From Sediminivirga luteola (GTDB lineage Bacteria > Actinomycetota > Actinomycetes > Actinomycetales > Brevibacteriaceae), in NCBI RefSeq assembly GCF_014639315.1, contig NZ_BMFY01000011.1, positions 62,001-126,000 on the forward strand: a stretch of 64,000 nucleotides of DNA. The letters run 5' to 3'. The notes beneath the pieces are model-generated. The model was not told the DNA's origin. It saw only the letters and a program-made list of their open reading frames with translations, and searched no databases. Below, in pieces: positions 30,054 through 44,305 of the stretch. Position 1 is the stretch's first letter; every line of letters begins with the position of its first letter. Both the position numbers and the translations under genes were made by a program.

Positions 30054-31574
30054 TTACCGTCTCGGCGGGTAGCGTCGTGCCGCGGCACGACGGGTCTCGG
30101 TCCGGTCGTCGAAGGGCACCACGCGGTCCCCGAGGTCCTGGCCGTGCTCATGTCCCTTGCCGGCCACGAGCACGGTGCCGTGCCGCCCGGCGGCCTGCAG
30201 CGCCGCGTCGATTGCGGCCTCACGGGGGACGATCTCCTCGATCCGCTGGGCCCGTCGCTGGGCCTCGGGCACGCCGCGGGCGCCGCCGAGGACGGAGGCG
30301 CGGATGGCCGCGGGATCCTCCGAGCGAGGGTTGTCGTCGGTGACGATCACCACATCCGCGCCGCGCGTGGCGGCCTCGCCCATGCCGGGCCGTTTGCCCG
30401 GGTCCCGTTCGCCGCCGGCGCCCAGGACGATCACGAGCGGCCGGCCGGCTTCGCCCAGCGAGCCGAGCGCCTTGCCGATCGCATCGGGCGTATGGGAGTA
30501 GTCCACCAGCGCCAGCGGCTGGTCCCAGACTTTCTCCATGCGGCCGGGCACCACCACGTCGAGCCGGGCGGCGGCCGCGACGATCCGGTCCCAGCCGAAA
30601 CCGAGGTCCCGGGCCAGGAGCATGGCGGTGGCGGTGTTGACGAGGTTGAAGGCCCCCGGCAGCGGCGAGCGCGCCGCCCAGCTGCCCTGGGCGCCGTGCA
30701 GGGTGAATCCCTGCGGGTCGCCCGGATCGGCCTCGACCCGGTAGTCGGCCCGGGTGCCTGCGTCCGGCGCCTCTGCCTCCGCGCTGAGGGTCACCACGGG
30801 GATCCGGGCCTCGCGTGCCAGCCGCTGCCCCCAGGCGTCGTCGATCACCACGACCCCGCGGTCCGCCCGTTCCGGGGCGAACAGCATCGCCTTGGCCTGG
30901 AAGTAGTCCTCCATGTCCGGGTGGAAGTCCAGGTGGTCCTGGCTGAGGTTGGTGAACGCCACGGCCCGGTAGCGCAGCCCGTCGACGCGGTGCTGGGCCA
31001 GGGCGTGGGAGGAGACCTCCATGCTGCAGGAGGTCACGCCGGCCTCGCGCATCCGCCGCATCAGGGCGTGGAGTTCGGCGGCCTCGGGCGTGGTGCGGAC
31101 GCTGCCGGCCTCCTCGTCGCCGATGCGGGTGGCCACGGTGCCGATCAGCCCGGTGGTCTCCCCCAGGGCGCGCAGCAGTCCGTCCAGCAAGTACGCCGTG
31201 GAGGTCTTGCCATTGGTCCCGGTGATCCCGGCCAGGCGCGGCCGGTCCGGATCGGTGCCGTAGACGTCCCGGGCGATGCCGCCGACGACGGCGCGCGGCG
31301 AGTCCACCACGATGACGGGCACCCGTGCCAGTCCTCGTTCCTCGGCGCGGCGCAGGCCCTCGGCGTCGGTCAGGACGGCGAGAGCGCCAGAGCCGAGAAC
31401 CTGCTCCAGGAAGTCGATGCCGTGGAACCGGCTGCCCGGCAGCGCCGCGTAGAGACTGCCCTCGCCGGCGAGCCTGGAGTCCTGGGCTACAGAGGCGGGC
31501 CGGGCGTCCCAGTCGCCCGTCCCGGCGGCGGTGCCGCCGAGGTTCGCGCGGATCTCCTCGAGCGTGGGCCTCAC
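30054..31574 (-). CDS. murE: UDP-MurNAc-tripeptide synthetase MurE (DNPR type)
   Basis: A 506-residue Mur ligase that adds the third stem-peptide residue. P-loop GITGTNGKTSTAYL, SMEVSSHALAQ, and GKGHE near the C-terminus. The residue-3 selectivity segment is DNPR at residues 414-417, followed by SED. In characterised MurE proteins DNPR marks meso-diaminopimelate specificity; Lys enzymes differ there. GTG start overlapping the ftsI stop by 4 nt. The amino acid assignment is inferred from the motif. Confidence 0.94.
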   Translation of the reverse strand: MRPTLEEIRANLGGTAAGTGDWDARPASVAQDSRLAGEGSLYAALPGSRFHGIDFLEQVLGSGALAVLTDAEGLRRAEERGLARVPVIVVDSPRAVVGGIARDVYGTDPDRPRLAGITGTNGKTSTAYLLDGLLRALGETTGLIGTVATRIGDEEAGSVRTTPEAAELHALMRRMREAGVTSCSMEVSSHALAQHRVDGLRYRAVAFTNLSQDHLDFHPDMEDYFQAKAMLFAPERADRGVVVIDDAWGQRLAREARIPVVTLSAEAEAPDAGTRADYRVEADPGDPQGFTLHGAQGSWAARSPLPGAFNLVNTATAMLLARDLGFGWDRIVAAAARLDVVVPGRMEKVWDQPLALVDYSHTPDAIGKALGSLGEAGRPLVIVLGAGGERDPGKRPGMGEAATRGADVVIVTDDNPRSEDPAAIRASVLGGARGVPEAQRRAQRIEEIVPREAAIDAALQAAGRHGTVLVAGKGHEHGQDLGDRVVPFDDRTETRRAAARRYPPRR

Positions 31575-33775
31575 TGTCCGCCTCCCCCTGTGCTGTCGGT
31601 CGATGTGGTGTTCCCGGGCTCCTCGGTGTCGCCGGCGCCGGCGCCGTCGCCGCCTTGGTTCTCAGTACCGGTGCCGCCGGGCTCCTCGGCGTCGGTCTCC
31701 TGGCTGGCGCTGCGGCCCTCACGCGGGTAGATGTCCGGTTCGCCCTCCGAGGGCGAGATGCCCAGGCTGCGCAGGCTGTAGGCCATCACCTGCTGGAACA
31801 GCGGCGCGGCGGCCTGACCGCCGTAGAAGTTCTTCTGCGGCCGCTGGACGATCACCGAGACGACGATCTCCGGGTCGTCGATGGGAGCGGCGCCGATGAA
31901 GGTCGCGGTGTAGCCGTCGTAGCCCCCGGTCTCGGATGGGGCCTGGGCGGTGCCGGTCTTGCCGCCGACCCGGTAGCCCGGGATCCTGGCGCTGCGACCG
32001 GTGCCCTCCTCCACCACGCCTTCGAGGATCTTGCGCATCTCCTCGACGGTGTCCTGGCCGACCACCCGGGTGCCCTCGTCGCGCGGCAGCGACGTGGTCG
32101 TGCCGTCGGGGGCGACCTCGCTGTCCACCAGCCGCAGGTCCCGGTGCACGCCGTCGCCGACCAGCGTCGTCATCGCGTTGGCGTTCTGCAGGCTGGTCGC
32201 GGTCATGCCCTGGCCGAACATGACGGCGTAGGCGGTGCGGCCGTCCCAGTCCTCGGGGGTGTGCAGGATGCCTGCGGTCTCACCGGGGAAGCCGATGCCG
32301 GAGGGCTGCCCGAAGCCGAACGCGCGCAGGTAGTCGTAGCGCTGCTGCGTGGTCAGCTGCTGGCCGGCCTGCAGGGTGCCGGTGTTGGAGGAGTCCATCA
32401 TGATGCCGGCGAAGGTCAGCCGTTCTTCCGGGTGGTCGCTGGAGTCGCGGAACCGCTCGCCGTTGGGGGCTTCCCAGCGGTCGGCCACATCGTACTCGGT
32501 CAGCGGGGTGACCAGGTCCTCTTCCAGGAGCGCGGCGGCGGTGACGATCTTGGCGGTCGAGCCCGGCTCGACGCTGGCCTCGAAGATGCGGGAGGACAGA
32601 TCGGCGTCCGGGCTGGCGGCGGGGTTGTTCGGATCCAGGTAGGGCGCCTCCGCGGCGGCCAGGATCCGGCCGCTCTTGACCTCGTTGACGATCACGGTGG
32701 CCCATTCGGCCCGGTGCTCCCGTACCGTCGCGGCGGCCTGCTGCTGCGCGTAGAGCTGGATGTTCGGGTCGATGGTGGTCTGGATGGAGGCTCCGTCGAC
32801 GGGCGGCTGGGTGTTCGAGTCGCCGAGCGGGATGAGCTGGCCGTTCTGGGCCCGCTCGTACTGCTGGGTGCCGTCGGTGCCGGTGAGCAGTTCGTCGTAG
32901 GCGATCTCCAGGCCGGCCAGCGGCGTGCCCTCCTGGTTGTAGTAGCCGACCATATTGCCGGCGACCGCTCCGGCCGGGTAGCTGCGGACCTGGTACTTCT
33001 CGCTGGTGATGCCGACCACGCCGAGTTCGCGCACGGCGTCCCAGACCTGCGAGGTGACTCCCCGGGCCAGCACGGAGTAGCGGCCGTCGCGCTCGAGCAT
33101 CGGCAGCAGGGTCTCCGGCGTCGTCTCCAGCACGGGCGCCAGCGCCTCGGCTGCGCCCCGGGCGCCGGTGATCTCCCCGTCCTCGTCCCGGTATCCGGCC
33201 ACGTTCACCGGATCGGCGACGATGCGGTAGCGGTCCACCGACTCAGCCAGCACCGTGCCGTCGGCGGCCAGGATCCGGCCGCGCTCGGCCGGCAGGGTCA
33301 CGGTGCGCAGCCGCTCTTCGAGGGCACGCTGGGCCAGGGCCATGGTGTCCAGTCCCTGGATCCGGACGAGCTGTCCCACCAGCAGAGCCAGGATGGCGAT
33401 GCTGGCGGCCGCCATCCACCACAGGCGGCGGCGCGGCTCGCCCACCCGCGGGGCGAACCGGCGCGGCGGGGCGGGCGGTTCCTGCGGCGGGCGCGTCCCC
33501 GGCGACCGGCGTTTCGGCGCGGCCTTCCGGGGTTCGCGCGCCGTCCCGGCGTCCCGGCGTCGCGCGGAACCGGGTGCCTGCCCCGCGCTCTGGGCGCGGG
33601 AGACGTTCGCCGTCCGGCCGGTGTTCTGCGTCCGGGTGCCCTGGCGCCGGGTGCTGGAGGCTCCCGGCCGGGGCTGCCGTGCGTTCCCGCCGTTCGGCGT
33701 TCGACGGTCCTTCTGAGCGCGGGCCACAGTGCCGACTGTACCGGCGGTGCCGCCGCGCGGGCGCGAAGGTGTCAT
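31571..33775 (-). CDS. ftsI: Septal penicillin-binding protein FtsI (class B PBP)
   Basis: A 734-residue transpeptidase that crosslinks septal peptidoglycan together with FtsW. A basic, disordered N-terminus (about 1-115) precedes one transmembrane helix, then a pedestal domain and the penicillin-binding domain with Ser406-Thr-Ala-Lys409, Ser462-Ser-Asn464 and Lys606-Thr-Gly608. The C-terminal tail after about residue 665 is acidic, Gly/Thr-rich and low complexity. ATG 33775 overlaps the ftsL stop by 4 nt. Confidence 0.95.
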   Translation of the reverse strand: MTPSRPRGGTAGTVGTVARAQKDRRTPNGGNARQPRPGASSTRRQGTRTQNTGRTANVSRAQSAGQAPGSARRRDAGTAREPRKAAPKRRSPGTRPPQEPPAPPRRFAPRVGEPRRRLWWMAAASIAILALLVGQLVRIQGLDTMALAQRALEERLRTVTLPAERGRILAADGTVLAESVDRYRIVADPVNVAGYRDEDGEITGARGAAEALAPVLETTPETLLPMLERDGRYSVLARGVTSQVWDAVRELGVVGITSEKYQVRSYPAGAVAGNMVGYYNQEGTPLAGLEIAYDELLTGTDGTQQYERAQNGQLIPLGDSNTQPPVDGASIQTTIDPNIQLYAQQQAAATVREHRAEWATVIVNEVKSGRILAAAEAPYLDPNNPAASPDADLSSRIFEASVEPGSTAKIVTAAALLEEDLVTPLTEYDVADRWEAPNGERFRDSSDHPEERLTFAGIMMDSSNTGTLQAGQQLTTQQRYDYLRAFGFGQPSGIGFPGETAGILHTPEDWDGRTAYAVMFGQGMTATSLQNANAMTTLVGDGVHRDLRLVDSEVAPDGTTTSLPRDEGTRVVGQDTVEEMRKILEGVVEEGTGRSARIPGYRVGGKTGTAQAPSETGGYDGYTATFIGAAPIDDPEIVVSVIVQRPQKNFYGGQAAAPLFQQVMAYSLRSLGISPSEGEPDIYPREGRSASQETDAEEPGGTGTENQGGDGAGAGDTEEPGNTTSTDSTGGGGQ

Positions 33776-34410
33776 GGCGTGCCGCCGTCCCCCTCGCCGC
33801 CTCCGGTCTCCTCTCGGGGCTCCCGCTGCTGGGGCGCGTCGATCTCACGCTGCTGCGGAGGCACGATCTCCTCGCCCGGCGGGTCGTCCGGCAGCGGGTC
33901 CGGCTGGCTCTCGACGATCTCCTGACGCTGCGAGGTGCGCAGGTCCGGCCGCTTGTCCTCGCGAATGTCCGCGCGCGGACCCGGGACGGGCTCGCCCGGG
34001 GTGGCCGGAACCGTGTTCTGCGGGTCCGGCTCGCTCATCCGGCCGGTCTCCAGGTCGATGTAGATCGGGTTCTGGTCCACCTGCATGCCGAGCTCCTCCG
34101 CCGCCTTGGCGACGTTCTGCGGGCTCGACCGGTAAGCCAGATCTTCCTCCAGGTACGCGCGCTCGACGTTCAGCGCGTCGAGTTCCTGCTCCAGGGCCCG
34201 GAGCTCGAAGCTCTTCTCGGAGATATGGATCGTCAGCATGAGGAGCCCGACGACCGCCAGCAGCAGCAGGCCGCCCAGGCCGGCGCCGAAGGGCAGCCGG
34301 CGGCGGGCGGGCAGCGGCTCGATCAGGGAGAGCCGGCGCCTGGCGGGCGCCGGTGCGGCACCACCGGCCCGGCGGCGGGCGGGAGCGAGCACCCTGGCCA
34401 GATCGCTCAT
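33772..34410 (-). CDS. ftsL: FtsL-like bitopic division protein with long C-terminal tail
   Basis: A 212-residue protein with a basic cytoplasmic N-terminus, one transmembrane helix (about 43-62) and a coiled coil (about 65-92), followed by the short [19 protein letters not shown] segment typical of FtsL-type proteins in Actinobacteria. Residues about 125-212 form an unusual Pro/Glu/Gln-rich tail predicted to be disordered and extracytoplasmic. Identity rests on position between rsmH and ftsI as well as topology. ATGA overlaps on both sides. Confidence 0.85.
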
Positions 34411-35462
34411 CGGCGTCCCTCCTTCTCCCTGGTCTTACGGACTGCCCGCAGCCGCACGCTGGCGGCCCGGGGGTTCTGCTCGATCTCTTCCACCGGGGCT
34501 TTCTCCGCTCCCGGCAGCAGCGGTTCGAGCCACGGCTGCATGTGCTCTGGCACGACCGGCAGTCCCGGGGGCGCCTGCACCTGGGTGCCCTGGGCGTGGG
34601 CGCGTTTGACGATGCGGTCCTCCAGCGAGTGGTACGCCATCACGACCTGGACGCCGCCGAGGGTCAGGGCGCCGAGCCCGGCCGGGATCGCGCGCTCGAG
34701 GACGTCCAGCTCGCGGTTGACCTCGATGCGCAGCGCCTGGAAGGTGCGTTTGGCGGGATGCCCGCCGTGCTTGCTCTCGGGCAGGACGCGCTGGAGCATG
34801 CCAGCCAGCTGACCGGAGGTCTCCCAGGGGCGGTCCCGCCGGTCGGCCACGATCACGGCGGCGATCCGCCGCGCATGCCGCTCCTCGCCGTAATCGCGCA
34901 GGATGCGAGTCAGCTCGGCTTCGCTGTAGGTGTTCAGCACCTCGGCGGCGGTGAGGCCGTCGCCGTCCTGGCCGCCGTTCATGCGCATGTCGAGCGCGGT
35001 GTCGCGGGCGTAGGAGAAGCCCCGCTCCGGTTCGTCGAGCTGCAGCGAGGAGACCCCCAGGTCGAAGAGCTCCGCATCGGCGCGGCCGAGGCCGAGGTCG
35101 TCCAGCACCTCGGGCAGCTCGTCGTAGACGGCGTGCACCAGGTCGATCCGCGCCGTGTGGCCGGCGAGCCGGTCGCCGGCGAGTGCGAGGGCCTCGCGGT
35201 CCCGGTCGAGGCCGACCAGGTGGATGTCGGGGTAGCGGTCCAGGGCGGCCTCGGCGTGCCCGCCCATGCCGAGCGTCGCGTCCACGACGACGGGGGTGCG
35301 GCCGGCCCGGCGCGCAGCCTCCACGCCATCGCCCAGGAGGGAGACGCAGCGCTCCAGCAGCACGGGGACATGCTTGCCGGCGGCCTCGCTGGCGTGCTCG
35401 TCACGCGTGCCGTGCCGGCGGTGCCCGCCATGCGTGCCGTTGCCGCCCCGGTCCTCGCTCAT
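34407..35462 (-). CDS. rsmH: 16S rRNA (cytosine-1402-N4)-methyltransferase RsmH
   Basis: A 351-residue SAM-dependent methyltransferase (MraW) that modifies C1402 of 16S rRNA. The SAM loop [33 protein letters not shown] and [13 protein letters not shown] are diagnostic. Two starts are close: GTG 35471 and ATG 35462. The latter has GAGGTGAG at proper spacing and is used here. The N-terminus is His/Gly-rich and extended relative to the E. coli protein. It is separated from mraZ by about 255 bp, which is long for this pair. Confidence 0.95.
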
Positions 35463-35717
35463 GTGTCTCACCTCACCTTCGCTGCTCGTCGGCGGTCATG
35501 CGTTCTGGCCGCCTATCCCGCCCGGACCCGCTCAGTCCGCCGTCCGGGCCGGACTCGCTGTCCCGGCCCGGAGCTGATCGCCCCAGAACCCCGGCCGCGC
35601 GGGTAGCGCGTCATGGGCTTCAGCGGCCCTGGCACCGGGGAAGTGTGTCAGGACCACTGGGCTTTGGAACCGGGGAAGAGTCCCAAAACCACCTGCGCGG
35701 CCGGGGATCTCGGGCGA
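35463..35717. other. mraZ-rsmH spacer with a direct repeat
   Basis: No gene is seen here. The 255-bp spacer contains two copies of ACCGGGGAAG 35 bp apart (35634-35643 and 35669-35678). Most dcw clusters have a short mraZ-rsmH gap, so an internal promoter or regulatory site is possible, but no clear -10 was identified. Confidence 0.35.
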
Positions 35718-36149
35718 TCAGAGGATGCCCGGGATCACTTCGTCATCACGTTCGGCGAAGCCTCCTTCGGTCTCGGAGAGGTACCTCTCCCAGGTCGGTG
35801 CGTCCCAGATCTCCGCGCGGTTCCCCATGCCGATGACCGCGATGTCACGGTCCAGCCCGGCATAGCGGCGCAGGATCTGCGGGACGGTGATCCGCCCTTG
35901 CTTGTCCGGCGTCTCCGAAGCGGCTCCGGACAAGAAGACGCGGAGGTAGTCGCGTGCCTCTTTCTTCGTCATCGGCGCCTTGCGCATCTCCTCGTGGACG
36001 GCTTCGAACTCCCCGAGGGAGAAGAGGGTGAGACAGTGCTCCTGCCCCCGGGTCAGCACTAGGCCGTCCTTGAGTTCTTCGCGGAATTTCGCGGGCAGGA
36101 TGAGCCGGCCTTTGTCGTCGAGGCGCTGATAGTGCGTCCCCAAGAACAT
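35718..36149 (-). CDS. mraZ: Transcriptional regulator MraZ
   Basis: A 143-residue protein with two AbrB-like swapped-hairpin repeats ([14 protein letters not shown] and [15 protein letters not shown]). MraZ forms ring-shaped oligomers that bind tandem GTGG/TGGG repeats with a 10-bp pitch and represses its own dcw operon in studied bacteria. The start ATG 36149 is fixed by the conserved [14 protein letters not shown]; the frame open upstream runs through the operator region. A GGGGGTGAG site lies upstream. Confidence 0.95.
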
Positions 36150-36194
36150 CGGTGTCTCACCCCCGCTCGCGAAACCATGCGGCTCCGACAGCCA

Positions 36195-36218
36195 CCACCA
36201 TACTCCACTTTCCCCCAC
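36195..36218 (-). promoter_or_regulatory. Candidate MraZ operator at the mraZ promoter
   Basis: On the minus strand GTGG occurs three times with an exact 10-bp period (36218-36215, 36208-36205, 36198-36195), reading GTGGGGGAAA, GTGGAGTATG, GTGGTGGCTG. This matches the known MraZ box architecture of three short G-rich repeats one helical turn apart. A possible -10, TATGGT (36203-36198), lies inside the array, consistent with autorepression. Confidence 0.75.
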
Positions 36219-36277
36219 CAAGCGTCCTGTTTTGCTCCATGTGAGCCCACCAGTGAGAAAACTCGCAGATCAAACCG

Positions 36278-36302
36278 GTGGTGCAAAGTGGAGGTTTTTG
36301 AC
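36278..36302 (+). promoter_or_regulatory. Second candidate MraZ site with adjacent -35 on the plus strand
   Basis: Two GTGG repeats, 36278-36281 and 36288-36291, are 10 bp apart on the plus strand (GTGGTGCAAA, GTGGAGG). A TTGACA (36297-36302) follows immediately and could be a -35 element facing moxR. A convincing -10 was not found at standard spacing, so the promoter is tentative. Confidence 0.45.
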
Positions 36303-36446
36303 ACGCCCGGTGCGGCGGCATCGGTGTCACCGGTGGCTTACGCCCCGGATTCACGGGATTTCCGGTGGTCGATGCGGCCGTTTCCGCCCCTCCACCGCCC
36401 TCCCCGCCGCGCTGAAACGGTCCTGGCTGGGAGGGATTGGAGGGAA

Positions 36447-36490
36447 GTGGGGCACGGGGAGCGAAGTGGGGTGCGGGGAGGCAAGTGGAG
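36447..36490 (+). promoter_or_regulatory. G-rich repeat array upstream of moxR
   Basis: GTGGGG (36447), GGGGAG (36456), GTGGGG (36466), GGGGAG (36475) and GTGGAG (36485) follow each other at 9, 10, 9 and 10 bp. The GAAGTGG unit itself repeats at 19 bp. The array ends about 30 bp before the moxR start. It resembles the MraZ boxes of the divergent mraZ promoter, so binding by MraZ or a similar helical-phase binder is plausible. Confidence 0.5.
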
Positions 36491-36521
36491 CGCCCCCGCC
36501 GCGGCAGGGAAGAATGGGGGC

Positions 36522-37457
36522 ATGCACACCCACGATGTGATCTCCCTGGCCCAGGCCGGCATCGGCGCCATGAACCGCGTGATCGACGGCAAGCCCCAGG
36601 CTGTCCGCCTCGCCTGGGTCGTCCTGCTGGCGCAGGGCCACCTGCTGATCGAAGACGTGCCGGGGGTCGGCAAGACCCTGCTGGCCAAGGCGCTGGGCCG
36701 GGTCCTGGGCGGGAGCGTGCGGCGCATCCAGTTCACCCCGGATCTGCTGCCCGCCGATGTCGTCGGCGTGAACCTCTTCAACCAGGAGTCCCGGCACTTC
36801 GAGTTCCGCCCCGGCCCGGTCTTCGCGAACGTGGTGATCGGTGACGAGATCAACCGGGCCTCGCCCAAGACCCAGTCGGCGATGCTGGAGTGCATGGCCG
36901 AGGCCCAGATCAGCATCGACGGCACCACGCACCGCATGCCGCATCCGTTCATGGTCGTGGCGACGCAGAACCCCGTGGACATGGAGGGCACTTTCGCCCT
37001 CCCGGAAGCCCAGCGGGACCGCTTCATGGCGCGGGTGTCCCTCGGCTACCCCGCCCGGTCGGCCGAGGTCGAGATGCTCGACCACCACGGCGCCCGCGAC
37101 CCCCTGAGCGAACTGGAGCCGGTCTGCGGGCCCGAGCACATCGCCGCGGCCATCGAGACGGTGCGCCGCGTGCACGCCAGCCCTGAGCTGCGCGGTTACA
37201 TCGTGCGGCTGGTCGAGGCCACCCGCGAGTCGGCCGAGTTCTCCCTGGGCGCCTCTCCCCGCGCCAGCCTGCACCTGCTGCGGGCGGCCAAGGCGAACGC
37301 CGCGCTGGACGGACGCGAGTACGCCAGCCCGGACGATGTCCAGCAGCTGGCGGTCAGCATCCTGGCTCACCGGCTGATCCCGCGTGAGGAGGGCACCGTG
37401 GAGCACGCCGCGGAGGCGCTGCGGCGTATCCTCGCGGCGGTGCCGGTGATCGCCTGA
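36522..37457 (+). CDS. MoxR-family AAA+ ATPase
   Basis: A 311-residue AAA+ ATPase with Walker A DVPGVGKTLLAKAL (Lys51), Walker B VVIGDEINRA, and the MoxR signature ATQNPVDMEGTFALPEAQRDRF (in part). MoxR ATPases act as chaperones for von Willebrand/DUF58 proteins. It is the first gene of a three-gene operon with DUF58 and a transglutaminase, and runs divergently from mraZ. The ATG 36522 follows GGGGG; AAGAAT six bases upstream might make the message leaderless. Confidence 0.9.
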   Translation: MHTHDVISLAQAGIGAMNRVIDGKPQAVRLAWVVLLAQGHLLIEDVPGVGKTLLAKALGRVLGGSVRRIQFTPDLLPADVVGVNLFNQESRHFEFRPGPVFANVVIGDEINRASPKTQSAMLECMAEAQISIDGTTHRMPHPFMVVATQNPVDMEGTFALPEAQRDRFMARVSLGYPARSAEVEMLDHHGARDPLSELEPVCGPEHIAAAIETVRRVHASPELRGYIVRLVEATRESAEFSLGASPRASLHLLRAAKANAALDGREYASPDDVQQLAVSILAHRLIPREEGTVEHAAEALRRILAAVPVIA

Positions 37458-38653
37458 TGCGGCTGACCTTCTCCGGCTGGGCGTTCCTGGTCGCCGGCGG
37501 CGGGCTGATCGCCGCGGCGTACCTCGCCGCGCTGCCCGGGCTGCTGCCGGTCGGGGCGCTCGTCGCCGCCCTGCCGGTGCTCTCCCTGCTCCTGGCAGGC
37601 CTGAGCGCGCGGGCGCTGCAGGTCTCCTTCCGGGTGCACGCCCCCGAACTGGGCGGGCAGCGCATCGCGGAGGTCGGGCGCCCCCTGGAGGTCGAGCTGC
37701 TCGTCGTCAACCGGCATCTGCTGCCCACCCAGGGCGAACGGCTCCAGCTGGATCTCTCCCCAGCCTTCGGCGCCGATGTGAGCACCCGGCTGCCGCGCAT
37801 CGCCCCGGGCCGCAGCCGGCGCATCTCCCACCAGGTGACTCCTGAACTGCGCGGCGTGTACCAGCTCGGCGGGGGCACCCTGACGATCTTCGGCCCCTTC
37901 ACCCTGTGCCGCATCACGCGGCGCCTCGAGCAGACCGGAGCGGCACGGCGGCGCAGCCAGCCCGAGCAGACGGCCGAAGTCGCCGTCTCAGCGGCCGTCT
38001 CCCCCATGCACCTGCCGGGCCACACATCGTCGTCCCATGCGCTGGAGGAATCCAGCCGGCTCTCGGTGGGCAACGCCACGAGGGACTTCCACGCCCGGGA
38101 GTACGTCCCCGGAGACGATCTGCGCTTCGTGCACTGGACCACGACCGCGCGGATGGGCGAGCTCATGGTGCGCAACGAATCCGAGGAGCATGTGCTCTCG
38201 GCGGTCCTGGTGGCCGATCTGCGCGCCTCCGCCTATCACGGTGAGGAGGCGTTCGAGACGATGGCGCTGGGACTGACCTCCGCGGCGGCGGCCTTCCTGC
38301 GGCGAGGCTACGAGGTCACCGTGCTGCGCCCCCGCGCCGCGCCGGTCACCCTGCACGGGCAGCAGAGCATGTCCCGGCTGCGCCGCCTGTCCGCCCAGCT
38401 GGAGTGGCGGGAGGACGAGTCGCTGCCGCGCTGGCCGGCCTCACAACCCCGGCCCTCGCAACTCGTCGTCTGCTGCGGCTCCCGGGACCAGGCACTGATG
38501 GACCTCGTCCCGCGCCGGCACCGGGTGCGGGCGGTCGTCCTGGCCGCCAACGAGGTCACCACGCCCGCCGACTCGCTGCGCCGGGCCATCTTCCGGATGC
38601 CGATGACGCTCCCGGCGCGCTGGCGCAGCCTGCAGCACGAGGCGGCCGGATGA
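37457..38653 (+). CDS. DUF58 domain protein
   Basis: A 398-residue protein with two N-terminal hydrophobic segments and a C-terminal DUF58 region containing REYVPGDDLRFVHWTTTARMGELMV, the family hallmark. DUF58 proteins carry a vWA-like fold and accompany MoxR ATPases and transglutaminase-like membrane proteins. Its start overlaps the moxR stop by 1 nt (TGATG) and its end overlaps the next gene by 4 nt. Confidence 0.88.
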   Translation: MRLTFSGWAFLVAGGGLIAAAYLAALPGLLPVGALVAALPVLSLLLAGLSARALQVSFRVHAPELGGQRIAEVGRPLEVELLVVNRHLLPTQGERLQLDLSPAFGADVSTRLPRIAPGRSRRISHQVTPELRGVYQLGGGTLTIFGPFTLCRITRRLEQTGAARRRSQPEQTAEVAVSAAVSPMHLPGHTSSSHALEESSRLSVGNATRDFHAREYVPGDDLRFVHWTTTARMGELMVRNESEEHVLSAVLVADLRASAYHGEEAFETMALGLTSAAAAFLRRGYEVTVLRPRAAPVTLHGQQSMSRLRRLSAQLEWREDESLPRWPASQPRPSQLVVCCGSRDQALMDLVPRRHRVRAVVLAANEVTTPADSLRRAIFRMPMTLPARWRSLQHEAAG

Positions 38654-40944
38654 GCGCGCCGCGGCCCCTCGCCGGTTCCCTCGCCACCGCCGTCTCCCTG
38701 GTGCTGGCGGCCTTCGCCTTGCAGGCGGCCTTCGCCGACCTGCGCTGGATGCCACCCGTGCTCGGCGCGGCGCTCCTCGTGCTCGCGGTCGGCGCCGTCT
38801 TCCGTGCCGTGCCCGCGCTGCGCCGCACGGGACTGGCCGTCGTGGCCCAGACGATCGCCGGCGTGCTCGGCGTAGCCGCCCTCGCCTCCCCTGCCACGGC
38901 GATCGGCGGCGTCCTGCCGACACCGGCATCGTTCCCGGGCGTCCTGGACGCGCTGAACTCCGGCATCGACGACCTCTACGCCACCCAGGCGCCGGCCGCC
39001 TCCACGTCGGGGCTGACCGCGCTCATCATGGCGCTGTTCGCACTGGTCGCGGTGCTGATCGACGGGCTCGTCTCAGATCTGCACGCGCCCAAGCCCGCCG
39101 GGCTGCTCCTGCTGGTCATCTACTTCATCCCGGTGCTCCTGGCCCCGAACGAACTGCGCTGGTACCACATCGTGCTGATCGGCCTGAGCTATCTGGTACT
39201 GCTGGCCGTGCCGCATCTGGAACAGCTGCGGGGCGGGCTGCCCGTGGCCGTGGCGGTCGCCGCGGCGGCCGGCCTGGCCGCGTCGCTGGCGGCCCCGCTC
39301 CTGCTGCCGCCGGCGGAAACCCGGCAGGACATCGGTTCGGGCCGCAGCGATCTGACGGTGGTGAACCCCTTCCTGAATCTGCGCGACAATCTGGACCGCG
39401 ACGAAGACCAGGAGGTGCTCCGGTACACCACGACCTCCGAGTCGAACGAGCCGTTGCGGCTGACCGCCGTGGCCGAGTTCGACGGGGAGACCTGGCAGCC
39501 CTCGCCGTTCCCGCTCGACCCGTTCGCGGTCGCCGAGGACGGCCTTCCCCAGCCACCCGGCCTCGACCCGGACACGCCCCGGATGACGGAGGAGCTGCAG
39601 GTCGCCGTGACCGGCCTGGACCAGGAGTACCTGCCCGCGCCGTATCCGCCGGTCCGCGCCGAAGGGCTCTCCCGCCGCTGGATCTACGACGAGCGCAGTT
39701 TCAGCATCGTCGGAAACGGCGTGCGCACCACGGATCTGCAGTACACGCTGGAGTATCTGGAGGTCGAGCCCACGCCGGGGCAGCTGCGCACGGCACCGCC
39801 GCCGGACCGCGCGGCGATGGCGGACTACCTCGCGCTGCCCGACGACCTGCCCGGCTCCGTCGGGGACCTCGCCGAGGAGGTCACGGCCGCGGCGGACACC
39901 GACTACGACCGTGCTGTCGCCCTGCAGGCGCATTTCCGCTCAGGCGAATACACCTACTCCCTGGACGCCCCGGACGAGGCCTCAAACGACGCCATTGCGG
40001 ACTTCCTGGAACAGCGCACGGGCTACTGCGTGCAGTTCGCCTCCGCGATGACCGTGATGGCCAGGCACCTGGGCATTCCCGGCCGGATCGCGGTGGGCTT
40101 CACCGCCGGTTCCGATGTCGGTGACGGTCAGCGGGCGGTGACGCTGCACAACGCGCATGCCTGGCCGGAGCTGTACTTCGAGGGCGTGGGCTGGGTGCGG
40201 TTCGAGCCGAGCCCGGCGGATGTGAACAACGCGCCCGAGTGGTCGCTGCCCACCGAGATGCCCGAGGAGCCGGCCGAAGAAGGCGCCGGTGAGGAGGAGA
40301 CCCCGGAAACGGCCGCGCCGGAACCGGAAGACGAGCAGACCGAGGCGCCGGAGGAGGATCCCGCCGCCGACGACCCCGGCGCCTTCCCGCTCCCGCAGGA
40401 ACCGGCCGCGGCACCGCGGGCGATCCTTGGCATCGGCGGCGGCCTGCTCGCGCTGTTGCTGGCGGCACTGCCCTGGTGGCTGCGTCGTTCACGGCGAAAC
40501 CGGCGCCTGTCCGATGGCGATCCCCGCGGCCTGTGGTCGGAGGTGGAGGACCTCTCCCTGGACGCCGGGAGGCCGCTCGATCCGGCGGACACCCTGCGGC
40601 GCAAGGGCGAACTGCTCCAGGAACGGCAAGAGCGGGCACTCCCGGAGGGCTTCGTCTCCGCCGCGGTACTGGCCGGCGCCGCCGAACGCAGCCGTTATGC
40701 GCTCGTGGGAGCCGGGTCGGAAGCCGGCGCGGTGGCCGGGGACGAACCTGCACCGCGCCGGCATGGGCGCCGCGACGCATCCCCGGCGTCCGCCGCGTCC
40801 CCGCAGCCGTCGGTGGACGCCGGGGAACGCCGCGAGCTGGTTCGCGCTCTCGGCGATGTCCGCCGCCTGCTGCGCGCTGAGTCCGGTCCGGTGCGACGGG
40901 TACTGGCCGCGCTGCTGCCGCGTAGCCTCTGGCGGCGCCGGTAA
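38650..40944 (+). CDS. TgpA-like membrane transglutaminase domain protein
   Basis: A 764-residue protein with an N-terminal block of about six transmembrane helices, a large extracytoplasmic region with a transglutaminase-like domain, an acidic linker, a further transmembrane helix (about residues 590-612) and a C-terminal cytoplasmic domain. The catalytic triad can be placed at Cys460 (TGYCVQFA), His503 (NAHAWPE) and Glu519 (VRFEPSP); Glu instead of Asp is seen in this family. Related proteins are found with MoxR-DUF58. A role in envelope remodelling is inferred from this location beside the dcw cluster. Confidence 0.87.
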   Translation: MSAPRPLAGSLATAVSLVLAAFALQAAFADLRWMPPVLGAALLVLAVGAVFRAVPALRRTGLAVVAQTIAGVLGVAALASPATAIGGVLPTPASFPGVLDALNSGIDDLYATQAPAASTSGLTALIMALFALVAVLIDGLVSDLHAPKPAGLLLLVIYFIPVLLAPNELRWYHIVLIGLSYLVLLAVPHLEQLRGGLPVAVAVAAAAGLAASLAAPLLLPPAETRQDIGSGRSDLTVVNPFLNLRDNLDRDEDQEVLRYTTTSESNEPLRLTAVAEFDGETWQPSPFPLDPFAVAEDGLPQPPGLDPDTPRMTEELQVAVTGLDQEYLPAPYPPVRAEGLSRRWIYDERSFSIVGNGVRTTDLQYTLEYLEVEPTPGQLRTAPPPDRAAMADYLALPDDLPGSVGDLAEEVTAAADTDYDRAVALQAHFRSGEYTYSLDAPDEASNDAIADFLEQRTGYCVQFASAMTVMARHLGIPGRIAVGFTAGSDVGDGQRAVTLHNAHAWPELYFEGVGWVRFEPSPADVNNAPEWSLPTEMPEEPAEEGAGEEETPETAAPEPEDEQTEAPEEDPAADDPGAFPLPQEPAAAPRAILGIGGGLLALLLAALPWWLRRSRRNRRLSDGDPRGLWSEVEDLSLDAGRPLDPADTLRRKGELLQERQERALPEGFVSAAVLAGAAERSRYALVGAGSEAGAVAGDEPAPRRHGRRDASPASAASPQPSVDAGERRELVRALGDVRRLLRAESGPVRRVLAALLPRSLWRRR

Positions 40945-41763
40945 CAGCCCGCGGCGCCGGCTGGCGGCGGCACGCCGTCCGCGCTACGCGGCCACGCCGC
41001 TTTCGCTACGAAGCACCACGGCGCGGCGCGCGCAGGGCGAGCCCGCCGGGCCCGTAGCTAGGTGTACTGCCACGGCATGTTGCGCCGCCCGCGGCAGACG
41101 GCCAGGCAGGGCCGGTTCGAGTCAACCCGGCACCGCGTCCAGCCCGGAAGACGGCCGGAAAGGATGGGGAGGCCGAGCCCGGTCGACACGCGTGAGCCAG
41201 ACACACTTTTTGGCCTTTAACCCCCGGCAGGCGGCCGTCCGGGGCCGGCTGGATCATGAGATGTGCGCAGCGGTGGCGCAGGCATAAGGAAACGCCGCGG
41301 AACTTGCCTGCGGCGTTCGAGTGAGTGGAGTCCGCCGGTTGCTGAAGCCCCTGCGCGTCCTGATCCCGTGCCACCGTGTCCACTGCCGCAGCCCCGGCAG
41401 TGCCGCTGGCGGACCACTTTTCGCAGCATCGTCTCATGGCGGAGATGGGGAACGTGACCGGCTCAGCCGCGCCCGGTCCGGCTCGCCCCCTGACGTTCAC
41501 GGTGGCCGTCAGAGCGGATGATCATCGCGCTGCATCAGTCAGGTCCGTACGGCGCCCTCCCGCGAAGGAACGAGCCTTCCCGCGAAGGGTCCACCGTCCC
41601 ATGCCGAGACGTGCCTCCACCGGCGAAGGAGCGGAAACGGGATTGGCCGCCGGGTGAGAGACCAGCCGGAAGCTGGACACCAGGCGATAGCCGCGGTCGA
41701 ACGCCATCTCGGCCGAGTCGCCCGGCGAGGGATCGGCCTGCCCGCCGGCGAGGGATCAGGGAA
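40945..41763. other. 819-bp region without a supported gene
   Basis: No frame here looks coding: the open frames are short, Arg/Pro-rich and lack ribosome-binding sites. The region holds an inverted repeat (41291-41317), an AT-richer patch near 41210, a tandem CCCGCGAAGG pair around 41559-41588 and GGCGAGGGATC repeated 23 bp apart (41724 and 41747). It separates the tgpA operon from the convergent DUF3040 gene. Confidence 0.5.
41291..41317. terminator. Inverted repeat, possible terminator
   Basis: AACGCCGC (41291-41298) and GCGGCGTT (41310-41317) form a perfect 8-bp stem with an 11-base loop. On the minus strand it is followed by TCCTTATG. It lies between convergent genes and may end transcription, but it is more than 350 bp from either gene. 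Confidence 0.35.
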
Positions 41764-42192
41764 TCAGCGGCCGCCTTCGTTGCGGCGGCGCTCCCAGCGG
41801 TCTTCCATCTTCTGCATGAAGTTCTTCCCGTTGGCACCGCCACCGGAACCGCCTCCCGGCGAGGTGCTGCGCCCGGACCCGCCCAGCGGCGAGGCGGAGC
41901 CGCCGGAGCGTCCCTTGCCCGGCGAGAAGGCCAGCAGGCCGCCGGCCACCATGACGCCGAAGCCGGCCACGCCCAGCGCGATGGCGAGGGGGCCGGAGCT
42001 GGCGGCGAAGGAGATGGCGAGAACGGCGAGGACGGCGCCGGCGATCATCGTCAGTATTCCCAGCACCACGCGCCGGGCGGAGAGCCCGGCGACGGGTTCG
42101 GGGTTGATGTTCTTCGCAAACCGGGGATCTTCGCTGGCCAGTTGCTTTTCGAGCTCGTCGAGGAGCTTCTGCTCGTGCTCGGAGAGTGGCAT
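41764..42192 (-). CDS. DUF3040 domain membrane protein
   Basis: A 142-residue protein starting MPLSEHEQKLLDELEKQL, the DUF3040 hallmark, with two hydrophobic helices (about 43-60 and 68-88) and a Gly/Ser-rich C-terminal tail ending in a basic segment. Function is unknown, although the family is widespread in Actinobacteria near dcw and dinB. AAGGAG precedes the ATG. Confidence 0.87.
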   Translation of the reverse strand: MPLSEHEQKLLDELEKQLASEDPRFAKNINPEPVAGLSARRVVLGILTMIAGAVLAVLAISFAASSGPLAIALGVAGFGVMVAGGLLAFSPGKGRSGGSASPLGGSGRSTSPGGGSGGGANGKNFMQKMEDRWERRRNEGGR

Positions 42193-42253
42193 GGCGTCTC
42201 CTTCGGCTCTCGTGCGCTGGGGCTACGCGCCTTCGCGAAAGTGGTGGACTCCC

Positions 42254-42259
42254 ATCATA
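42254..42259 (-). promoter_or_regulatory. Candidate -10 element for the DUF3040 gene
   Basis: TATGAT on the minus strand, about 62 nt upstream of the DUF3040 start in the dinB-DUF3040 spacer. It matches the TANNNT consensus of SigA promoters; no good -35 was found at 17-18 bp. Confidence 0.35.
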
Positions 42260-42382
42260 GCCGTCAAGCCCCGTCCCAGGGAAACCGCTCCCCCAGTTCA
42301 CAGGCGGGATTCAGCGATCTTCTCGGGGATGCTCACGGCGACCTTTCCGGCGCTCTCCCCGACGGCCTTTTCCGTGCTCTTC

Positions 42383-43651
42383 TCAGTGCTCTTCGGGGCG
42401 CGGTTCCGGGCGCCCCTGGGTTCCTTTCGCCAGCAGCGCCGCCGCGCTGATCGACCCTTCTCCGAAGCGGTCCCGCACGGCGTCCAGTGCCTGCTCCGCC
42501 TCCCGGCGGGCACGCGGCCGTTCGTCGAGAGCCGCCTGACGGCCCGCGGTGGCAGCTTCCAGCAGCCCGGCGGCGCGTACGCCCAGCAGCCGGACTCCCG
42601 GTGCCGAGCCGAGCGCCTCAGCGGCCGGGAGCAGCGCGGCGTGGATCTCCTGCCCGATGTCGGTCGGAGCGGTGAGGGTGACGGAGCGGCTGAGGGTGCG
42701 GAAGTCCGGCCGCCGCAGCTTGAGTCCGAGTCCGCCTGCGACCAGGCCGGCCCGGCGCAACCGCCAGGCGACCTTGTCGCTGAGGCGGAGCAGTTCCCGC
42801 GAGACGTCCTGTTCCCGGTAGAGCGGGTCGAAGTAGGTGTGCTCGGCGCTGATCGACTTCTCCGGGCGCTCGTTCCGCACGCGCCGGGCGTCCCGTCCGT
42901 GCGCCTGCTCGGCGAGGGCGAGACCGTGGCTGCCGAACATGCTCTGCAGCCGCTCGGGTCCGAGCTCGGCCAGGTCCCGCACCGTGCTGATGGCATAACG
43001 TGCCAGCCTCGCCTGCATGCTGGGCCCCACCCCGGGAAGCGCCTGCACCGGGAGCCGCTGGACGAACTCGGCGCCCTTGGCCGCGGGCACCACCAGCAGG
43101 CCGTCGGGTTTGGAGTGGGTGGAGGCCAGCTTGGCCAGGAGCATATTCGAGGCCACGCCCAGGGAGCAGTGCAGGCGGGTCCGCCGCAGCACCTCGTCCT
43201 TGATCAGCCGGGCGATGCGTGCCGGGCTGCCCAACCGCAGGCGGCTGCCGGAGACGTCCAGGAAGGCCTCGTCGATGCTGACTTTGGCCACCCGGTCCGT
43301 GACCGATTCCAGGACCTCCATCACCTGCGCCGAATAGCGGCCGTACTCGCCCCGGCTGGGTGGGATGACGACGGCGTGCGGGCACTGGCGGACCGCCTGC
43401 GCCATCGGCATCGCCGCGTGCACGCCGTATTCCCGCGCCTCGTAGGTCGCCGAGACCACCACTCCGCGGTTGTCCCGGCCGCCGACGATCACAGGCCGCC
43501 CGCGCAGTTCCGGACGGGTGAGCAGCTCCACCGAGGCGAAGAAGGCGTCCATGTCCACGTGGATGACATGGCAGCCCGTATCGTCGGCGCCCAGATCCCC
43601 GAATCCGCCGCTGGCCCGGTCCAGCTGCTTCCTGCTCACGTTCCCAAGCAT
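42383..43651 (-). CDS. dinB: DNA polymerase IV (Y family)
   Basis: A 422-residue lesion-bypass polymerase. The catalytic residues are visible as HVDMDAFFASVE (Asp33, Asp35) and SIDEAFLD (Asp127, Glu128), followed by helix-hairpin-helix LPVQALPGVGPSM and the little-finger domain. The start is ATG 43651 or the GTG four codons later; neither has a strong site. The C-terminus extends about 50 residues beyond the little finger and does not clearly end in a beta-clamp motif. No LexA box was identified. Confidence 0.92.
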   Translation of the reverse strand: MLGNVSRKQLDRASGGFGDLGADDTGCHVIHVDMDAFFASVELLTRPELRGRPVIVGGRDNRGVVVSATYEAREYGVHAAMPMAQAVRQCPHAVVIPPSRGEYGRYSAQVMEVLESVTDRVAKVSIDEAFLDVSGSRLRLGSPARIARLIKDEVLRRTRLHCSLGVASNMLLAKLASTHSKPDGLLVVPAAKGAEFVQRLPVQALPGVGPSMQARLARYAISTVRDLAELGPERLQSMFGSHGLALAEQAHGRDARRVRNERPEKSISAEHTYFDPLYREQDVSRELLRLSDKVAWRLRRAGLVAGGLGLKLRRPDFRTLSRSVTLTAPTDIGQEIHAALLPAAEALGSAPGVRLLGVRAAGLLEAATAGRQAALDERPRARREAEQALDAVRDRFGEGSISAAALLAKGTQGRPEPRPEEH

Positions 43652-43716
43652 AGGAGGCCGCACGGACAGCAGGCACGGCAGATATGACGGACATGCAGGA
43701 CGCCACCGCAGCCCGG

Positions 43717-43722
43717 TACCCT
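43717..43722 (+). promoter_or_regulatory. Candidate -10 for a leaderless transcript
   Basis: TACCCT is followed by exactly seven bases (GGGGAGC) and then the ATG of the lipoprotein gene. This TANNNT-N7-ATG spacing places the transcription start at or next to the A of ATG, as in leaderless actinobacterial mRNAs. The GGAG in the gap is too close to act as a normal ribosome-binding site. Confidence 0.45.
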
Positions 43723-43729
43723 GGGGAGC

Positions 43730-44305
43730 ATGATCCGAACCACCGCATGGCCATCCGCGGCGGGTGCCGCTCTCGCGCTCACCCTGGTCTTCTCCGGCTG
43801 CACCGGCGGCGGCTCCGAGGGCACGGAGGAACCCGAGGGGACGGCACCGCCCACGGCAGAGGCGACGCAGGATCCGGACGATCTGGCCGCCTTCCCCGAG
43901 CACATCGCGCCGGAGTACCCCGGCTCCGAGGTGCAGTACTCTTCGGTCGAGGAGGCCGGCGACCAGCTGAGCTTCATGCTCCGCGCCGCCACGGAGGACG
44001 ACCGCGAGGCGGTGTGGGACTTCTACCGCTCCCATCTGGAGGAGATCGGCTTCGGCGTGCTGCAGGAGCACGAGGAGGACGGCACCCACATCATCGATTT
44101 CGAGCGCGGCGGGGGCACCGAGCTGGTGTTCGTCTCCTACGCCGAGACCGACGAAGGCGGCCTCCTCACCGTCTCCGGCAACGTGAACCCGGAGGACGAG
44201 GGCGACGGGGCCGAAGAACAGGAGGACGGGCAGGGCGACGACGCCGGCGGTGAGAACGGCGGCGAGGCCGAGGGCGCCGACGCCGAAGGCGACGAGCAGG
44301 AGTGA
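43730..44305 (+). CDS. Putative lipoprotein, acidic
   Basis: A 191-residue protein with a lipoprotein signal peptide ending LVFSGC, the lipidated Cys being residue 24. A small folded region follows (about 50-150; EHIAPEYPGSEVQY through GNVNPE), then a Glu/Gly/Asp-rich tail. The family is not recognised. Its stop overlaps the start of the polyprenyl synthase gene by 4 nt, so the two are co-translated. The link between a surface lipoprotein and isoprenoid synthesis is unexplained. Confidence 0.7.
   Translation: MIRTTAWPSAAGAALALTLVFSGCTGGGSEGTEEPEGTAPPTAEATQDPDDLAAFPEHIAPEYPGSEVQYSSVEEAGDQLSFMLRAATEDDREAVWDFYRSHLEEIGFGVLQEHEEDGTHIIDFERGGGTELVFVSYAETDEGGLLTVSGNVNPEDEGDGAEEQEDGQGDDAGGENGGEAEGADAEGDEQE

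Follow-up and report, generated by a model that had tools for sequence, protein, structure and literature searches.

The regulator MraZ is conserved across a very wide range of bacteria; to our knowledge, the operators described for it are short and its known targets few. In Mollicutes, MraZ sites are direct repeats of AAAGTG[T/G] (PMC8475190), and Mollicutes MraZ is cited in PMC7761207 as an octameric toroidal complex. The Burkholderia MraZ site, downstream of the -10 element, consists of four GTG repeats, each 7 nt long and set 3 nt apart (PMC7761207). As for MoxR systems, moxR is followed by a DUF58 gene in both the bifidobacterial PFNA cluster and the mycobacterial moxR1 locus, and in bifidobacteria a transglutaminase gene is also part of the moxR-DUF58 operon (PMC12067865, PMC8430577). 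These loci differ from the one analyzed here in having ripAB or a kinase/fn3 gene nearby, and the cited passages describe no MraZ control of them.

The window analyzed here, a stretch of 64,000 nucleotides, carries mraZ and moxR as divergent genes separated by an intergenic gap of 372 bp (Table 1). The MraZ protein belongs to the MraZ family by its PF02381 domain and by both AbrB-like DNA-binding motifs, which are retained (DDKGR..P and DKQGR..P), and it is 36% identical to the solved MraZ structure 1n0e. Its closest named relatives come from Brevibacterium species, with identities mostly of 73-84%, and the family label Brevibacteriaceae used below for the relatives was assigned from these matches; the window's genome is the sole representative of its genus in the searched set and falls in the same family. 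The dcw cluster begins on the (-) strand with mraZ as its first gene and Mur ligase genes further on, while moxR opens an operon with DUF58 and transglutaminase genes on the (+) strand. Beyond this operon, at 41654-44253, two (+) strand open reading frames, 677 and 189 aa long, match no Pfam family; a (-) strand frame overlapping them (42383-44089) matches the IMS/DinB polymerase family and is likely the real gene there.

Table 1. Genes, box blocks, and predicted promoter elements at the mraZ-moxR locus (window coordinates).
Feature	Position	Strand	Description
FtsI-type PBP	31571-33775	(-)	dcw cluster
rsmH/mraW	34407-35471	(-)	dcw cluster
mraZ	35718-36149	(-)	143 aa; PF02381, E 1.2e-38
Operator O1	36194-36220	(-)	three boxes of mraZ, TGG at 36217, 36207, 36197; 10-bp steps
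Candidate mraZ -35	36268-36273	(-)	TTGATC; aligned position in Brevibacteriaceae
Operator O2	36279-36294	(+)	middle pair, orientation opposite to O1
Operator O3 (array)	36428-36491	(+)	seven boxes: TGGGAG 36428, TGGAGG 36438, TGGGGC 36448, GGGAGC 36457, TGGGGT 36467, GGGAGG 36476, TGGAGC 36486
Last O3 box (TGGAGC)	36486-36491	(+)	predicted moxR -35 position, 18-bp spacer
Predicted moxR -10 (AAGAAT)	36510-36515	(+)	6 bp before ATG (36522)
moxR	36522-37457	(+)	MoxR-type AAA ATPase, 311 aa; PF07726, E 1.5e-61; PF17863
DUF58 protein	37457-38653	(+)	start overlaps moxR end; PF01882
TgpA-type transglutaminase	38404-40944	(+)	PF11992, PF01841; longest ORF, true start probably later

The boxes in this gap resemble the MraZ operators of E. 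coli and Burkholderia cenocepacia in being GTG-containing direct repeats at 10-bp steps, and O1, which lies in the mraZ leader upstream of the start codon, corresponds in place to the operators of those species, which sit between promoter and mraZ start (PMC7761207). However, in E. coli and Burkholderia a few boxes, four of them in Burkholderia, form a single block at mraZ, whereas three blocks in two orientations are found here, the third being a run of seven boxes beside the divergent moxR operon. The Mollicutes site shares an identical box core and, as the M. genitalium motif occurs only at mraZ (PMC8475190), the boxes here are likewise confined to one intergenic gap; in contrast, no MoxR operon is involved in Mollicutes. 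An O1-like operator precedes mraZ in 117/117 regions scanned, the best-scoring site being picked in each. In each of the 23 Brevibacteriaceae whose gap is complete, the middle pair of O2, TGGTGCAAAGTGGAGG here, is placed 117-130 bp from the mraZ start. It abuts an element, TTGATC here and conserved as TGACC in relatives, that is probably the mraZ -35, as judged from the aligned sequences.

The original prediction described five G-rich hexamers before moxR (those from 36448 to 36486) at 9-10-9-10 bp, forming a 19-bp unit (AAGTGGGGCACGGGGAGCG / AAGTGGGGTGCGGGGAGGC), and this description holds on the sequence. Two further in-register boxes upstream, TGGGAG and TGGAGG, had been missed, so that the run counts seven boxes at steps of 10-10-9-10-9-10. 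It is thus indeed longer than a three-box MraZ operator, with seven boxes compared with three in mraZ's own operator. The unit of O3 is the pair [T/G]GG[A/G]G-N5-TGG[A/G]G, 10 bp apart and repeated head-to-tail, in which the core TGG[A/G]G stands within AAGTGG, as it also does in the operator of mraZ itself, and the boxes form direct repeats at about 10-bp steps. In resamplings at constant dinucleotide content, at least three such pairs arose in 0.0004 of Markov samples matching the 90-bp tail in its G-rich composition, and the strict pair pattern never exceeded one copy when the whole gap was resampled 5000 times, compared with three observed. A pair pattern fitting mraZ's own operator, KGGDGNNAAGTGGRG, has five exact matches in the 3.86-Mb genome, all within the mraZ-moxR gap (one in the mraZ operator, one in the middle pair, and three in the array), while its reversed control has none genome-wide. 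Across 39 genomes, most matches to this pattern lie beside mraZ and the remainder are scattered. The possibility that MraZ has a wider regulon in this genome was also considered and rejected: allowing one mismatch yielded 12 further matches compared with 26 for the reversed control.

To compare relatives, we used a 20-position matrix trained only on mraZ-strand sites, the best one in the 200 bp next to mraZ being taken from each of 117 regions (90 distinct sites). In the present gap it picks out O1, O2 (at 36279), and O3. The three array pairs score 12-20 bits with it, the 1e-5 null threshold being 8.9. The class sample comprised 196 genomes; sites were surveyed class-wide in 117 regions of uneven relatedness, so the counts are not independent events. 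As the original prediction would have it, the array lies between mraZ and moxR in related genomes, often at greater length than here: all 23 Brevibacteriaceae carry forward sites before moxR, 86 in total, and none of them has a reverse-strand distal site in the matrix scan. The same scan found no site in moxR coding sequence over about 45,000 positions per strand. Divergent mraZ and moxR are widespread in the class (the list of families with this arrangement includes inferred moxR starts, possibly off by tens of bases), and outside Brevibacteriaceae a distal site is present in only 14 of 55 such gaps.

The boxes were next compared with the presence of mraZ. Eight genomes of a Streptomyces-like genus without mraZ have no forward sites upstream of moxR and a single reverse-strand match, and the pair pattern is not enriched genome-wide in 12 mraZ-less genomes, with 18 matches versus 39 for the control. 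Similarly, no forward sites were found upstream of moxR in 10 genomes of a family (f17, Microbacteriaceae-like by inference) in which moxR lies away from mraZ. Since such sites are lacking at moxR where mraZ is missing or moxR is elsewhere, the boxes follow mraZ. Taken together, the sequence comparison shows that the boxes form an array, that this array is conserved and strand-biased, and that it is tied to mraZ. Separately, a Streptomyces-like genome in which mraZ was undetected has three boxes arranged head-to-tail at G053:C1:4226999-4227023, namely TGGAGGGAAG twice and TGGAG after it. Another arrangement has a DUF3040 gene (PF11239) co-directional upstream of mraZ and no adjacent moxR; 11 of 19 such genomes have forward sites in a distal position, at 216-340 bp from mraZ. 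At seven loci (L029, L048, L051, L053, L056, L069, and L160), DUF3040 replaces moxR and the forward box pair persists before mraZ, in most of them about 20-40 bp from the end of DUF3040.

On the moxR side, the array meets what looks like a leaderless moxR promoter, judging by a conserved geometry. A scan of the mraZ-moxR gap for sigma-70 consensus elements and terminators found nothing, and the predicted moxR -10 is without the usual leading T; its distance from the ATG implies a leaderless transcript. The arrangement TGG-N20/21-NANAAT-N6/7-ATG, in frame with moxR, recurs in 21 of 23 Brevibacteriaceae, and the chance of such a -35/-10/ATG geometry is about 2e-4 per start codon. In several Brevibacteriaceae, including this genome, the array reaches the moxR -35, and the box there has a proper partner. 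One Brevibacterium subclade has instead GTGG at the -35, followed by CTG or ATG (GTGGCTG or GTGGATG), without a partner box and apart from the array, suggesting that GTGG may be the promoter's own -35.

We consider it probable that O3 is a third, expanded MraZ operator in a control region shared by the divergent mraZ/dcw and moxR-DUF58-transglutaminase operons, through which high MraZ levels would lower the expression of both. Because published MraZ sites are built of GTG boxes and both DNA-binding motifs are kept, we propose that oligomeric MraZ would occupy O1, O2, and O3, that is, the mraZ leader, the oppositely oriented pair that abuts the mraZ -35, and the region up to the moxR -35. Such a protein would bind several boxes together, cover O3, and possibly bridge O3 to O1 and O2. 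High MraZ would then reduce mraZ/dcw transcription, autorepression being the main effect, and MraZ on O3 would block RNA polymerase at the moxR promoter, with moxR repression as a probable second effect. MraZ binding, bridging, and control of moxR are what we infer from the layout, and the preference for repression over activation is a guess from the position of the boxes. Published MraZ effects vary by species: in M. gallisepticum, more FtsZ accompanies MraZ overexpression (PMC8475190), so regulation may differ in sign.

O3 could also serve mraZ only, as a distal auxiliary operator that loops to O1 and O2 and boosts autorepression, the moxR start being adjacent by chance. This is what the distal sites in 11 of the 19 DUF3040 genomes would suggest, as would the fairly constant distance of the first distal site from mraZ (270 +/- 26 bp in 23 genomes), but the array is expanded in Brevibacteriaceae and in several genomes extends into the moxR -35 with its partner box, and we regard a role restricted to mraZ as rather unlikely. 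The new circuit between MraZ and MoxR that had been proposed is therefore upheld in part: the promoter geometry speaks for it, and the distal sites without an adjacent moxR speak against it. As those sites also suggest that an auxiliary mraZ operator may be the older role, the simplest history is that a distal MraZ operator is old, was enlarged in Brevibacteriaceae, and in this family also ended up next to the moxR promoter.

Duplication does build the array, since array length varies between close relatives, and the 19-bp repeat of this genome, which Tandem Repeats Finder independently delineated at 36439-36488 (period 19, 2.6 copies, 83% matches), probably arose by tandem duplication. The longest array observed, at locus L012 (genome G009), lies about 263-461 bp upstream of mraZ and is organized as a 35-bp super-repeat with box steps of 10, 12, and 13; it holds about a dozen pairs, an approximate total owing to an N-gap in the contig, after which the region end, including the moxR start, repeats. 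A recent duplication of G-rich sequence without function is nonetheless very unlikely. The same boxes occur at different periods in 23/23 relatives with strict strand bias, and box-core identity between Brevibacteriaceae pairs is 0.78 compared with 0.61 for both the in-between bases and the neighbouring stretch, although some pairs align poorly where array lengths differ and pairs share species; neutral duplication would not give cores better conserved than spacers. Box-start lags enriched in the family are 10 (z=18), 12, 13, 22-23, and 35 bp. The helical phasing originally predicted thus applies to this genome, with its steps of 9 and 10 bp, and does not extend to the relatives, in which the constant unit is the 10-bp pair and the step between pairs is variable.

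It is highly improbable that the G-rich run acts as a G-quadruplex, in DNA or RNA, rather than as protein-binding boxes. The array does hold a four-tract G3+ motif (GGGAGGGATTGGAGGGAAGTGGGG), but such a motif is absent from 13 of the 25 regions examined in Brevibacteriaceae and, among the 23 complete gaps, from 12, whereas all 23 keep the box pairs, and the bases interrupting the G-runs (the T of GTGG and the A of TGGAG) recur throughout. Equally remote is the binding of another envelope-gene regulator such as MtrA, a repressor that in Dietzia acts on mraZ by binding upstream of it (PMC9602371), as the mraZ operator and known MraZ sites have the same boxes, and genomes that have lost mraZ lack them at moxR.

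If O3 is indeed an expanded MraZ operator, the moxR operon becomes a candidate MraZ target outside dcw; we found no report linking MraZ to moxR among open-licence papers. A more ambitious reading, in which MraZ rings bridge the three operators of opposite orientation into one switch for the dcw and moxR-DUF58-transglutaminase operons while tandem duplication sets the number of boxes species by species, is less likely than not. With its several operators, its arrays that reach about a dozen box pairs, and a divergent MoxR chaperone operon sharing it, the region offers a natural operator-size series for studying a ring-forming regulator on repeated DNA.
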